Assembly: GCF_020889705.1 (NCBI RefSeq)
Contig: NZ_JACMYP010000005.1
Coordinates: forward strand, 1 to 64,000
Origin: Bradyrhizobium altum
GTDB lineage: Bacteria > Pseudomonadota > Alphaproteobacteria > Rhizobiales > Xanthobacteraceae
Length of the DNA: 64,000 nucleotides
Direction: 5' to 3'
Shown here one piece after another: positions 59,504 through 64,000 of this stretch (its first letter is position 1; every line of letters begins with the position of its first letter). The position numbers and the translations under genes are program-made. Below the pieces are notes generated by a model. The model ran no database searches. It worked only from the letters and a program-made list of their open reading frames with translations, and was not told the origin of the DNA.

Positions 59504-59585
59504 GTCATTGCGAGCGCAGCGAAGCAATCCACGCCTCCTCCGCGGAGAGGTGTATTGCTTCGTCGCTTGCACTCCTCGCAATGAC
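59504..59585. repeat. Palindromic repeat, CGTCATTGCGAG family
   Basis: CGTCATTGCGAG on the left and CTCGCAATGACG on the right are exact complements, as at 18476-18562. It sits between trpEG and apt and overlaps the upstream part of apt. Confidence 0.8.
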
Positions 59586-59609
59586 GATGCGGAAAAAGGC
59601 GAGAGACCA

Positions 59610-60149
59610 ATGACCTTCGACCACGACATCAAGGCGACCGTTCGCACCATCACGGACTACCCGAAGAAGGGCATCCTGTTCCGCGACATCACGACGCTGC
59701 TCGCCGATGCCCGCGCCTTCCGCCGCGCGGTCGATGAGCTGGTGCATCCCTGGGCGGGGGCGAAGGTCGACAAGGTCGCGGGGATCGAGGCGCGCGGCTT
59801 CATCCTTGGCGGCGCGGTGGCGCATCAGCTCTCCGCCGGCTTCGTGCCGATCCGCAAGAAGGGCAAGCTGCCGCACACCACGGTGCGGATCGCCTACTCG
59901 CTGGAATACGGCATCGACGAGATGGAGATGCATGCCGACGCCGTGCAGCCCGGCGAGCGCGTGATCCTGGTCGACGATCTGATCGCGACCGGCGGCACCG
60001 CGGAGGGCGCGGTGAAGCTGCTGCGCCAAATCGGCGCCAATGTGGTCGCGGCCTGCTTCATCATCGACCTGCCCGATCTCGGCGGCGCCGCCAAGCTGCG
60101 CGCGATGGACGTCCCGGTGCGCACGCTAATGGCGTTCGAAGGGCATTAG
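59610..60149 (+). CDS. apt: Adenine phosphoribosyltransferase
   Basis: This 179-residue purine-salvage enzyme makes AMP from adenine and PRPP. The PRPP-binding motif is [19 protein letters not shown], and [10 protein letters not shown] and [17 protein letters not shown] are standard. The start at 59610 avoids an upstream in-frame extension that lies in the palindromic repeat. Its Pfam length and motif set are normal. Confidence 0.94.
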
Positions 60150-60168: not shown

Positions 60169-60307
60169 GTCGTCCCGGCCTAGTGCCCAATTGCGCACGG
60201 GAGCCGGGACCCATAACCACGAATAGTGATTGTGGAACGACGCTATAGCCCCAGCCTTCGCCAAACGCATAGCGGTGGTTGTGGGTCCCGGCTTTCGCCG
60301 GGACGAC
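60169..60307. repeat. Palindromic repeat, GGGACCCATAACCAC family
   Basis: GTCGTCCCGGC and GCCGGGACGAC form perfect 11-base outer arms. Inside are CCCAATTGCGCACGGG and GCCGGGACCCATAACCAC, with GTGGTTGTGGGTCCCGGC on the other side. It separates the convergent apt and ATPase genes. Confidence 0.82.
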
Positions 60308-60309
60308 AG

Positions 60310-60978
60310 TCATCCCCGCTGCAGCAGCATGCTCAGCTCGAGATCGCGGAACGTGGTGTAGTTCTTCCGGATCCACTGATGCAGCTCGGTCGATGAGTCC
60401 TTCTCCTGGCGCAGATAGCCGGTGAAGGAGAAGGTCAGCCGGTCGATATAGGTCTTCAGGAACACCGGCAGCGCGCGGAAGCGCAGCACCCGGCTGCCGG
60501 TCATGACGGGCGGCAGCTCGCCGCGCACCACGAATTCATTGTCGATGACGATGAGCGCGTTCGGCGGGATCATGCCCTGCAGCGTCTGGTAGCCGTGCAC
60601 CGAGGCGCGGTCGGTATCCGCCACATACAGGATCACAGGCGAGACGCGGCGGCGCAGCGCCTCTTTCATCAGCCCGATCTGGTCGACCATTTTGAAGAAT
60701 TCGTCGAAGGCGTGGTAGCCGAGGTCGATCACCTTGACGATGCCGTCATTGACGATGACGCGGTCCATCAGCTGCATCTTGCCGTAGGTGTCGATCACGT
60801 CGGCGGTTTCGGTGATCCGTGGCAGATAGTCGAGCAGCGACGGCTCCTTCAGATTGATGTCGTAGCAGACGACGTCGCCGTTCTTCAGCAGCAGGAATTC
60901 GCCGAGCAGCCGCGCGATCAGCGTCTTGCCGACCTGCGGGCGGGGCGAGCAGATGATGTAAACGGGCGTGGACGACAT
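60310..60978 (-). CDS. MinD/ParA-like P-loop ATPase with degenerate signature
   Basis: This 222-residue protein starts MSSTPVYIICSPRPQVGKTL. The P-loop, RPQVGKT, keeps the GKT lysine (K18) but lacks the ParA-family signature lysine at position 13 (Arg here), so nucleotide use may differ. It aligns in register with the neighbouring ParA-like protein: LLDYLPRITETADVID here against LKRFHPDITEIVDMTT, and VKVIDLG here against VTVIDVR there. No DNA-binding domain or membrane helix is visible. It lies 128 bases downstream of its paralogue on the same strand, with four repeats between. The function is unknown. Confidence 0.72.
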   Translation of the reverse strand: MSSTPVYIICSPRPQVGKTLIARLLGEFLLLKNGDVVCYDINLKEPSLLDYLPRITETADVIDTYGKMQLMDRVIVNDGIVKVIDLGYHAFDEFFKMVDQIGLMKEALRRRVSPVILYVADTDRASVHGYQTLQGMIPPNALIVIDNEFVVRGELPPVMTGSRVLRFRALPVFLKTYIDRLTFSFTGYLRQEKDSSTELHQWIRKNYTTFRDLELSMLLQRG

Positions 60979-61032
60979 CGCCCGCTATATCAGGCCAAAT
61001 TTTCGCCCAATCCAGCCCCATCGCCGCCCTCC

Positions 61033-61120
61033 GGCGCGATTTTTTTCGCTGCCGGGCGCGACTCTTTCGCTGCCCGGGCGGGACTTTTCGCCCCCTGCGC
61101 GCGCGACTATTTTTCGCCCT
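61033..61120. repeat. Four tandem imperfect 20-25-bp repeats
   Basis: Four units occur at 61033-61053, 61054-61075, 61076-61095 and 61096-61120 with the rough consensus GGGCGCGACT-N-TTTCGC-TG-CCC. The last unit overlaps the stop codon of the ParA-like gene, and the rest fill the gap to its paralogue. They look iteron-like or centromere-like, but slippage or a disordered coding relic cannot be ruled out. Confidence 0.6.
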
Positions 61121-61850
61121 TGGCCGACTTGGCGCCGACCAGGTCGGTCAGCTTGATCCGGTCGAACTCGCTCCAGACATTGGCGAGCCAGTGCCGGACA
61201 TAGCCGCGCAGCACGAAGGAGTAGTTCGCGGCGTCGTCGTTGATGCCCTTGTTGGCAACGAATTTCAGGAACGGAACCGAGGAGACCTCGACCTGCTCGT
61301 AGGCCATTTCGTTGAGCTTCGGGATGGTGAGGTCCACGGCATCCTTGATGCGGTGGAAGTAGGAATTGTAGGTCGCCTGGTCCCACTGGAAGAACTGGGT
61401 GTCGTTGATGAAGTTCTTCACCAGGAAATACTTCGCGCCGCTCATGAAGTTGGCGGTCTCGGCGATCTCGTCCAGCGAGGCGATCGAGGGGCCGAGGATG
61501 TGGAACACGGCGAAGGTGATCTGGCCGGAGCGCGCGGCGTCGAGGAAGCCGATGTCGCGCAGCGAGGCCAGCGCGGGCGACAACAGGCCGGCGCGGACGT
61601 CGATCACGGTGACCGAGGAACCGGCGTTCAGCGTATCGAAGATCTTCATCTGGTCCGCGGTCGTCGTCATGTCGACGATCTCGGTGATGTCGGGGTGGAA
61701 GCGCTTCAGCGTGCCGCGCGGCGACTCGGTGTCGAACGCCCGGGTCTGTACGTTGTTGGCACTGAAATAGTCCAGGAGCGTCCGCGAGACGGTGGTCTTG
61801 CCGACCCCGCCCTTGTCAGCGCCCACCACGATCACAACCGGCTTTGCCAT
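61107..61850 (-). CDS. ParA/MinD-family ATPase
   Basis: This 247-residue protein has the deviant Walker A ADKGGVGKTT with signature lysine K13 and P-loop lysine K18. A switch-type region (VTVIDVRAG) and a helical C-terminal half follow. No ParB, MipZ partner or chromosome-partitioning gene is nearby, so it is not an obvious plasmid-type par system. It may be an orphan positioning or polar-localisation ATPase that works with its degenerate paralogue. The gene starts with ATG at 61850, and its 3' end overlaps the last repeat unit. Confidence 0.8.
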   Translation of the reverse strand: MAKPVVIVVGADKGGVGKTTVSRTLLDYFSANNVQTRAFDTESPRGTLKRFHPDITEIVDMTTTADQMKIFDTLNAGSSVTVIDVRAGLLSPALASLRDIGFLDAARSGQITFAVFHILGPSIASLDEIAETANFMSGAKYFLVKNFINDTQFFQWDQATYNSYFHRIKDAVDLTIPKLNEMAYEQVEVSSVPFLKFVANKGINDDAANYSFVLRGYVRHWLANVWSEFDRIKLTDLVGAKSAKGEK

Positions 61851-62013: not shown

Positions 62014-63282
62014 TCAGCGGTGCCGGCCCCAAGGGCCTTGAAGTGGGCCTTGAAGCGGGCCTTGCAGAGGATCCAGCGGTCCCAATGGTCCCTGTGCGGG
62101 GCTGGTGCCCGGCAGCGGCGGCGGATTGTTCGGTTGTGCAGGCGGCGTGTCGCTCCAGGGGCCGTGGGTCACAGGCGGAGGCTGATCGCCCGACACCGAC
62201 GGCTGTTCCGGCGTTTCCGTCGCCTCCGATGTCTCATCCGGCAGCGCCAGCGGTCCGGGATCGTGGCCGCCGGCGTATTTCACCAGGGCATCGACCCGGG
62301 ACTTCACCGACGGATGGGTGGCAAACAGGTCGGCAAAGCCCTCGCGCGGATTGTCGACGCAGAGTTCCATCACCGCCGAGGTGGCGCCCGGCAACTCGCC
62401 GCGGTTCTCGATCTTGCGCAGCGCCGAGATCATCGCATCGGGATTCTTCGTCAGCTCGACCGATCCGGCATCGGCGAGAAATTCGCGCGACCGCGACAGT
62501 GCGAGCTTGACCACCTGCGACAGCAGCCAGGCCAGCATGATGAGCGCGACCGCGACGACGATGACGATGATCGCGCCGCCGCCCGAGCCCTTGCTGTCGC
62601 GGTCCGAAGAGGATGATGACGATGAGGAGGATGACGACGACGACCAGCCGCCTCCGCGGCGGCTGCCGCCGCTCCACGACAGATTTGTGAACACGCGGAA
62701 GAACAACTCGCCGAAGAAGCCGACCACGCCGGCGATGATCACGGCGACCACCATCAGCTGCACGTCGCCATTCTTGATATGGGTGAGCTCGTGGCCGAGC
62801 ACGGCCTCGATCTCCTGGTCGTTCAGTGCCCTCAACAAGCCCGTGGTGACCGTGATGGCGTATTGCCGCGGATTCAGTCCGGTCGCGAACGCGTTCAGCG
62901 CCGGACTGTCCATCACCTTCAGCTTCGGCATCGGAATGCCGCGCGAGATGCAGAGGTTTTCCAGCAGATTGTAGAGCCGCGGCTGCTGCTGCCGTGTCAC
63001 GCTTTCGCCGCCGGTGACGGCGTCGATCATCTTCTGGTGGAAGAAATAGGCGATTACGATCCAGGCCCCCGCCGCGATCGTCGCCCATGGGAAGGCCGAG
63101 ACCAGATCGCGCGAGGCATGGGTCAGGTAATAATCGGCCGTGCGGCCGCTATCGATCATGACCTCCGCGACCAGCGCGCCGCCATAGACCAGCACGTAGA
63201 TCAGCAGGAACAGGCCGGCGAGCAGCAGCATCGAACGAAACTTGTTCGATGCGATATGCGTGTAGAGACCGTAGGCGGCCAT
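62014..63282 (-). CDS. M48 peptidase with Ser-rich linker and PLQG repeats
   Basis: This 422-residue membrane protease has a zinc motif HELTH (H164, E165, H168), three or four membrane helices (about 16-39, 67-81, 176-195 and 236-258) and third-ligand region SRSREFLADAGSVEL. Between helices lies a 13-serine run (214-226) next to GGSRRGGGW, and the C-terminus is long and Pro-rich with repeats of GPLQ (GPLQGPLQGPLQGP). The upstream co-directional LemA gene is the known companion of this family. It is longer than HtpX and probably acts in membrane-protein quality control. Confidence 0.87.
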   Translation of the reverse strand: MAAYGLYTHIASNKFRSMLLLAGLFLLIYVLVYGGALVAEVMIDSGRTADYYLTHASRDLVSAFPWATIAAGAWIVIAYFFHQKMIDAVTGGESVTRQQQPRLYNLLENLCISRGIPMPKLKVMDSPALNAFATGLNPRQYAITVTTGLLRALNDQEIEAVLGHELTHIKNGDVQLMVVAVIIAGVVGFFGELFFRVFTNLSWSGGSRRGGGWSSSSSSSSSSSSSDRDSKGSGGGAIIVIVVAVALIMLAWLLSQVVKLALSRSREFLADAGSVELTKNPDAMISALRKIENRGELPGATSAVMELCVDNPREGFADLFATHPSVKSRVDALVKYAGGHDPGPLALPDETSEATETPEQPSVSGDQPPPVTHGPWSDTPPAQPNNPPPLPGTSPAQGPLGPLDPLQGPLQGPLQGPWGRHR

Positions 63283-63316: not shown

Positions 63317-63877
63317 TCAGAACTTCACGCTCGGTGCCGCCTCGACCTCCGTGCGGCTGGCGCCGAGGTCGAAGAAATCCTTGCGGGTGAAGCCGAACAT
63401 GCCGGCGAACAGCGCGGCCGGCATCTGCTGGATGCCAGTGTTGTATTCCTGGACCGCGTTGTTGAAGAAGCGGCGGCTGGCGGCGATCTTGTTCTCGAGA
63501 TCGGAAAGCTCGGAGGCGAGCTGCTGGAAATTGGCGTTGGCCTTGAGGTCCGGGTAGGCTTCCGACAGCGCGATCAGCCGGCCGAGCGCGCCGGAGAGCT
63601 GGTTCTCCGCCGCCGACACCTGGGCCGGCCCCTGAGCAGAGATCGCCGAATTGCGTGCCTTGATGACGTCGTCGAGCGTGCCGCGCTCATGTGCGGCATA
63701 GCCTTTCACGGTCTCGACCAGGTTCGGGATCAGGTCGTGGCGCTGCTTGAGCTGCACATCGATGTCGGCAAAGGCCTGGCTGACGCGCTGGCCGAGCGCG
63801 ACGAGGCGGTTGTAGGCGCCGAACGCAAACAGCACGAGAAGGACGATGACGCCGATGACGATCCAGCTGGTCGACAT
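63317..63877 (-). CDS. lemA: LemA-family membrane protein
   Basis: This 186-residue protein has an N-terminal membrane helix (WIVIGVIVLLVLFAFGAY, residues 5-22) and the LemA coiled-coil domain with NRLVALGQRVSQAFADIDVQLKQRHDLIPNLVETVKGYAAHE. LemA proteins are found throughout bacteria in tandem with M48 or TPM-domain proteins. The start at 63877 gives MSTSWIVIGV; the frame continues upstream but with an unlikely composition. It is 34 bases upstream of the M48 gene, in the same operon. The last 120 bases of the window hold no gene. Confidence 0.9.
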   Translation of the reverse strand: MSTSWIVIGVIVLLVLFAFGAYNRLVALGQRVSQAFADIDVQLKQRHDLIPNLVETVKGYAAHERGTLDDVIKARNSAISAQGPAQVSAAENQLSGALGRLIALSEAYPDLKANANFQQLASELSDLENKIAASRRFFNNAVQEYNTGIQQMPAALFAGMFGFTRKDFFDLGASRTEVEAAPSVKF

Positions 63878-64000
63878 GACAGGGCAGCTCCTGATGGACG
63901 AGACGGCGGCACCGTAGCCCAGGATTGGGGCGCAGGGCAGCCCGCCGCGAAAAGGTGGGCATGAATTGGTCGGCACAGAACCAAGATTGGTTCAACATTC
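63878..64000. other. Window-end intergenic stretch
   Basis: No gene, repeat or terminator is visible in these final bases, which should contain the promoter of the lemA-M48 operon. Confidence 0.4.

Follow-up and report, generated by a model that had tools for sequence, protein, structure and literature searches.

ATPases of the ParA/MinD type are usually described as symmetric homodimers, and the positioning of cargo is a common job of this class. Cfd1-Nbp35 and Ffh-FtsY are known heterodimers among these NTPases, with Fe-S and signal recognition roles, respectively, and their fold resemblance to the two proteins described here is remote only. The TraL/StbB/MobD family (NF010461; RP4 TraL, R388 StbB) consists of small ParA-like ATPases of about 240 aa, and the six TraL regions of plasmids compared here have a single TraL gene, which in 5/6 of them is flanked by genes of the TraK and TraM types. 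StbB-like proteins fall into a group with the motif KGGxxK and a group in which the signature lysine is replaced, SGxxGK[TS], and loss of stbB from R388 abolishes conjugation, the plasmid molecules then being mostly excluded from the poles (PMC3098194, in excerpt). In the sandwich dimers of ParA the signature lysine enters the active site of the partner and stimulates hydrolysis (PMC5393062, in excerpt). McdA (SGGQGKT) and BcsQ (RGGVGTT, with R at the place of the signature lysine) are ParA-family proteins without this lysine (PMC9178275, in excerpt), and McdA is nevertheless reported to be a more than 200-fold more active ATPase than plasmid ParAs (PMC6328274, in excerpt), so that a protein of this family can stay active when the signature lysine is gone.

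The two genes analysed here, A and B, lie in a window of 64,000 nt, which is the whole stretch of DNA under study from Bradyrhizobium altum, in a genome of 9.76 Mb distributed over 613 contigs. A first-pass annotation had described them as tandem ParA/MinD-like genes, and both open reading frames were recovered on the minus strand with the lengths and the spacing listed in Table 1. Their products are here regarded as ancient paralogues that together make up a two-protein ATPase module, which belongs to the ParA/MinD (SIMIBI) class and has its closest relatives in the TraL/StbB branch, a reading to which a probability of roughly 0.5 is given. Understood in this way the A-B pair is a real two-subunit variant of ParA/MinD-type ATPases and, if true, it would give Bradyrhizobium and its relatives a further two-protein module for their cell biology; moreover, with one subunit carrying the trans-acting lysine and the other never doing so, the contribution of each half of the sandwich would be measurable without engineering. 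A description of the pair was not found in the papers searched among the open-licence PMC literature, a scope that does not show its absence in print.

Table 1. Features of the A-B locus, with positions in the window and conservation among aligned members
Feature	Position	Strand	Conservation
Gene A, ParA/TraL-type ATPase with complete deviant Walker A motif, 247 aa	61107..61850	-	
Gene B, paralogue without signature lysine, 222 aa	60310..60978	-	
A-B intergenic gap, 128 bp	60979..61106	.	
Imperfect 21-22 bp tandem repeat, 2.3-2.5 copies, inside the A-B gap	61033-61091		
A residues 10-20, GADKGGVGKTT, signature K13 and Walker K18	61791..61823	-	K13, K18 in 36/36
A residues 40-46, DTESPRG	61713..61733	-	D40, E42, P44, G46 in 36/36
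A residues 84-88, DVRAG	61587..61601	-	D84, A87, G88 in 36/36
B residues 10-20, CSPRPQVGKTL, R13 replacing signature lysine, K18 kept	60919..60951	-	no K13 in 40/40, K18 in 38/40
B residue D85, Walker B-like aspartate	60724..60726	-	D in 40/40
LemA gene, upstream of the pair, same strand	63317-63976	-	
M48/HtpX-type protease gene, upstream of the pair, same strand	62014-63282	-	
Adenine phosphoribosyltransferase gene (apt), beyond B	59508-60149	+	

Distinct proteins were collected for A (49) and for B (48), the B protein of locus L051 being set aside as ambiguous. Alignment A1 contained 36 of the 49 A proteins, and alignment A2 contained 39 of the 48 B proteins together with that of L051. The rows left out were near relatives and locus L025, in which the A match of the genome has a stop and B has C at position 18. 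The B protein of a lineage with swapped gene order, f52, was included only in the motif comparison and in the tree.

The product of A carries K13 and K18 with the residue numbers that the first-pass annotation had assigned to them, and the entire KGGxGK[ST] signature (K13, G14, G15, G17, K18, T19) is present in 36/36 aligned members. Two further conserved stretches are residues 40-46, which we take to be Walker A'/switch I-like, and residues 84-88, presumably Walker B/switch II-like. Scores against described families stay below their cut-offs, with 24.8 bits against 25.4 for Pfam CbiA (PF01656), 13.0 bits against 20.7 for Pfam MipZ and 14.0 bits (E 0.025) against 360 for the TraL model NF010461. 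B has no match to CbiA at the curated cut-off, and at E 0.1 this model matched 36/36 A members and 7/40 B members. Among phage families, A weakly matched the ParA-like phrog_164 (E 2e-7), and nothing was found for B up to E 1.

In B, the arginine at position 13 reported in place of the signature lysine is found within SPRPQVGKT, and the 40 aligned members have R in 31, Q in three, H in two and L, N, A and S in one case each. The description of its P-loop as degenerate was accurate in part; the signature lysine and the next two glycines are gone (the glycines occur in 2/40 and 1/40 members), but the Walker A Gly-Lys-Thr is intact in the B protein of the window. ATP-binding residues are retained (K18 in 38/40, T19 in 40/40, D40 in 39/40, D85 in 40/40 members), and the switch residues are unconserved (P44 in 10/40, G46 in 11/40, A88 in 3/40, G89 in 4/40). 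With the signature lysine and the switch residues gone and K18 and the aspartates kept, B has thus lost the parts that act across the dimer and kept those for binding its own nucleotide. In some lineages the Walker lysine is lost too, being replaced by T and V in 2/40 members, by C in L025 and by R in f52, the B of which reads SERGGEGRT. This suggests that hydrolysis by B itself may be dispensable at least where the Walker lysine is missing (f52, L025, L044, L045).

Compared with three congeners, A had a dN/dS of 0.08-0.13 and B one of 0.27-0.36, values that point to purifying selection on the two genes. The mean column identity was 69% for A and 40% for B, as calculated from similar, not identical, sequence sets, and the faster evolution of B would also fit an adaptor or a loosely constrained partner.

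The designation of A and B as paralogues was borne out, since they are reciprocal best non-self matches in the genome (E 6.7e-4 and 2.2e-4) although 13 other places in it score above the CbiA cut-off; one further genomic match of B (E 0.17) contains a stop and was taken as noise, which leaves each protein as the sole credible relative of the other found in the genome. When the two family alignments (36 A and 40 B proteins) were compared with each other, they matched with an E of 4.2e-31 over 230 columns at 17% identity, so that the two are homologous over their full length. The proposed alignment in register is gapless from residue 1 through ITEIVDM of A and ITETADV of B, and the VTVID and VKVID segments pair as well after one single-residue gap, with D84 of A opposite D85 of B. 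One branch of the joint tree, with support of 98/92, parts A (36 rows) from B (41 rows), which is consistent with a single old duplication behind both proteins; B of f52 sits on a very long branch, the placement of which is unsure according to the warning of the tree program.

Confident AlphaFold models were obtained, with a mean pLDDT of 87.2 for A and 91.2 for B. Among the fold matches listed, the top match of the A model was dimeric MipZ (Z 15.6, 3.2 Å rmsd, 210 aligned residues) and that of the B model was TP228 ParA (Z 16.6, 3.1 Å, 190 aligned residues), followed at a distance of up to about three Z units by chains of MinD, FleN, HypB, Cfd1 and NifH type. Judged by these models, A and B are both of the ParA/MipZ fold. 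Among proteins of solved structure, MipZ is also the one that the A profile matches best in sequence (E 0.0016), and A has all motifs of the MipZ, ParA and MinD proteins, but in sequence A and B score far below the cut-offs of these families and they are two unequal paralogues.

The fold matches of B to Cfd1 (Z 15.3) and HypB (Z 14.9) lie close behind ParF, and Cfd1-Nbp35 is a heterodimer of the same class. The pair might accordingly be a maturation or assembly ATPase of the HypB, CooC, Cfd1/Nbp35 or Get3-like kind, loading metal, cofactor or protein and unrelated to positioning. This is considered improbable, since TraL scores higher with the B profile than do all other ParA-type proteins of the panel described below, the listed invariant columns of A and B are devoid of Cys and include a single His (H117 of A), and no shared enzyme neighbour was seen in the 47 loci of the neighbourhood set.

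Linkage of the two genes was determined in a family sample of 61 genomes, drawn evenly from a larger number, with cut-offs of E 1e-3 for A and E 1e-5 for B. Both genes were present in 39 genomes, A alone in two (G009, G053), B alone in none and neither gene in 20 (Fisher p 4e-14, phylogeny uncorrected). Unlinked genes in relatives, named in the first-pass annotation as an observation that would speak against the pair, are not the rule; B lies directly downstream of A on the same strand at 40/43 A loci of these genomes, and the matched stretches are 23-727 bp apart at the 40 adjacent loci. The three A loci without adjacent B are those of G009 and G053 and an extra A in G004, and extra B genes without adjoining A occur in G004 (contig C489) and G021 (contig C74).

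Order-wide, 25 of 297 genomes carry A or B, 10 within the family and 15 in six other families. Both genes were found in 21 of these carriers, B only in G127, G193 and G266, and in G181 an A that sits 215 bases from a contig start. The genes are adjacent in 20 of the 21 carriers of both, G191 and G337 of these being at contig breaks; in G082 they are on different contigs. The order is swapped in f52 (genome G111, locus L198), with a B-like gene followed by A, and the product of the former matched the B profile with E 1.6e-18 compared with 7.4e-11 for the A profile when this one sequence was searched (E 6.6e-14 in its genome). A possible 26th carrier, G294, was discarded, its weak match being a TraL protein (NF010461, E 6e-64) beside genes that by eye are maybe Trb-type. 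In 385 genomes of the class, two matches were obtained at E 1e-10, and this genus accounts for the two. In all of these family, order and class searches the candidates scored per genome were limited in number and came from a loose prefilter, so that very divergent members of A or B may be missed. Among the best 80 relatives of A (out of at least 473 loci), 78 are titled Bradyrhizobium, and the top two show 100% identity.

Genomes with A only (G009, G053) or B only (G127, G193, G266) mean that neither gene strictly needs the other. Such single-gene genomes and the unpaired extra copies are what would be expected of simple tandem duplicates with separate functions, kept together by chance or by co-transcription. 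That explanation is given very little credence, because adjacency also extends to other families of the order, in which B identity is down to 22-28%, and both this and the swapped order in f52 are hard to explain by chance. From their distribution, A and B have mostly been passed on as neighbours in a single bacterial order and probably work together, and it is considered likely that they form a co-functional module.

Several observations on individual loci were made. The B genes without A in G127, G193 and G266 (loci L199, L204 and L206) belong to one genus and are adjoined by small genes of cluster 26; the same gene family also follows B in L208, an A-B relative of that genus. In the congener G229 a second copy of the pair (L255, 5183-6720) is disrupted, with A and B each split over several frames, which looks like joint decay. 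A second A-B pair of another congener, G024 (L195, 9528-11048) is located about 6 kb from a putative type III secretion export gene; the surroundings, which were assigned by eye, comprise this presumed type III secretion export protein-like gene and, between it and the pair, genes that we take to be peptidase-like, which suggests a symbiosis-type island. Fusions of A and B in L013 and L024, where long frames surround B, were rejected because A is in another frame. Gene 71, which lies beside A in G009 and G053, was dismissed as a replacement of B since by eye it is another protein, presumably dihydroorotate dehydrogenase-like.

A competing explanation takes A as an ordinary ATP-sandwich homodimer and places B outside the dimer as a former ATPase that now acts as adaptor or regulator and connects A with the cargo, like ParB or McdB. 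It agrees with the retention of every motif of a self-sufficient ATPase in A (36/36), with the survival of A without B in G009 and G053, with the faster evolution of B and with the loss of its Walker lysine in some lineages (2/40 members, L025 and f52). K18 in 38/40, D40 in 39/40 and D85 in 40/40 B proteins would be needless for a pure adaptor, however, and B alone persists in three genomes, so that an adaptor role of this kind is regarded as rather unlikely, if the strongest of the alternatives, in comparison with a two-protein ATPase module.

Neighbouring genes were compared in 47 loci, i.e. the window, six named genomes and forty further stretches, some of which were chosen for a single A or B. 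Open reading frames were called with a GC3 score, a crude procedure that missed A and B of L190 and single genes elsewhere; the A/B cluster was thus called in 46/47 loci, the exception being L190, where profile searches place both genes. The next most widespread clusters were HtpX and LemA with 18 loci each. Both lemA and htpX stand beside the pair, or beside A, in 17/47 loci from 11 genera, including the window, and are absent in others; a functional link to lemA-htpX was therefore rejected in favour of a local neighbourhood. From genus to genus the genes around the pair change, but A and B stay next to each other. As no neighbour cluster comes near the frequency of the A/B cluster, a dedicated cargo protein, if there is any, is probably encoded elsewhere.

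The evolutionary distances of A and B in 16 loci were correlated with r 0.95, which is barely above the 0.88-0.91 for correlations with the neighbouring HtpX and LemA. The partial correlation of A and B in these loci was 0.78 given one control and 0.64 given both controls, the latter being equal to that of A and HtpX given LemA (0.64).

In the window, five neighbours were scanned, namely apt, trpE(G), an extradiol dioxygenase gene, the HtpX-type gene and lemA. All belong to families other than ParB, in agreement with the first-pass annotation, and the pair thereby differs from a ParAB-parS partition system; MinE and transfer genes (TraK, TraM, relaxase) were likewise not found among these five neighbours. 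A promoter scan gave 0 sites and a terminator scan gave 2 sites, with no clear excess over shuffled sequences.

The relationship to TraL was assessed with a profile panel that comprised seven TraL proteins as well as the frames surrounding the fifteen CbiA-type matches of the genome, with Z set to 1000. The B profile matched 7/7 TraL proteins (E 8e-11 to 3e-4) above all panel proteins except A and B, a comparison that somewhat favours TraL because TraL was first suggested by the B profile itself; a panel of seven is also small. The A profile matched 7/7 TraL proteins weakly (E 1e-5 to 0.02); its best three outsiders were TraL proteins (E 1e-5 to 3e-4), and other ParA-type proteins were interspersed among the remaining four. 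With hhalign, TraL was matched by B with E 2.4e-13 and by A with E 4e-9. By profile, the closest known relatives of A and B are the TraL/StbB conjugation ATPases, at a remote distance and below the NF010461 cut-off. In contrast to TraL, A and B are two unequal paralogues, and transfer genes are lacking among the scanned neighbours.

As TraL is the nearest family, the pair could represent a conjugation ATPase of TraL/StbB type that was captured and continues to function in the DNA transfer of integrative elements. We hold this to be highly improbable, since transfer genes are absent from the five neighbours scanned in the window, 72,556 plasmid records contain no match to A or B, and it is lemA-htpX, not transfer genes, that the pair or A adjoins in the 17 loci mentioned above.

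The first-pass annotation had suggested a heterodimer in which ATP is hydrolysed by only one subunit. The reasoning behind this is doubtful, because the signature lysine acts in trans, so that in an A-B dimer K13 of A would complete the site of B, and the expected asymmetry would be the reverse of one in which A hydrolyses and B does not. The signature lysine is also lacking in McdA and BcsQ, for which, in contrast to B, the excerpts of PMC9178275 and PMC6328274 mention no lysine-bearing paralogue as partner. For a physical heterodimer of A and B, the odds are put at about even.

In the proposed mechanism, A would bind ATP and pair with B through the usual sandwich face; alternatively, A would pair with itself and then recruit B. 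K13 of A would complete the site in B, and the site in A would receive R13 of B and cycle slowly, which would give a built-in asymmetric switch. The ATP-bound form might hold or place some cellular cargo, and hydrolysis would set this cargo free. This full version, a cargo-serving ParA-type heterodimer of unequal paralogues from one alphaproteobacterial order that is polarised in such a way that the lysine of A serves the site of B and R13 of B slows that of A, is put forward tentatively, with the balance of probability against it.

A cargo positioning role for A and B is an assignment that we infer from family resemblance only, as is the term positioning system. With regard to candidate targets, matches to FliM were divided into a strong class (E 1e-57 or better), here termed canonical, and a weak class with E 1e-22 to 1e-29. 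A canonical FliM was present in 34/41 genomes with A and in 6/20 without A (p 1e-4, phylogeny uncorrected), and any FliM in 34/41 and 14/20, respectively (p 0.32). The flagellum was rejected as the sole target, since 7/41 genomes with A have no FliM match of any kind and any FliM is not associated with A. TadE of the Tad pilus was present in 40/41 genomes with A and in 11/20 without it (p 8e-5), a difference open to phylogenetic confounding.

Finally, positions 60202-60307 of the window form part of a REP-like palindromic element that contains TCCCGGCTTTCGCCGGGACGAC. With up to two mismatches, this sequence occurs in 94 copies per genome strand, compared with 0 for the reversed control. The copies often form inverted pairs about 95-100 bp apart and show paired changes, e.g. 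TCCTGG...CCAGGA.
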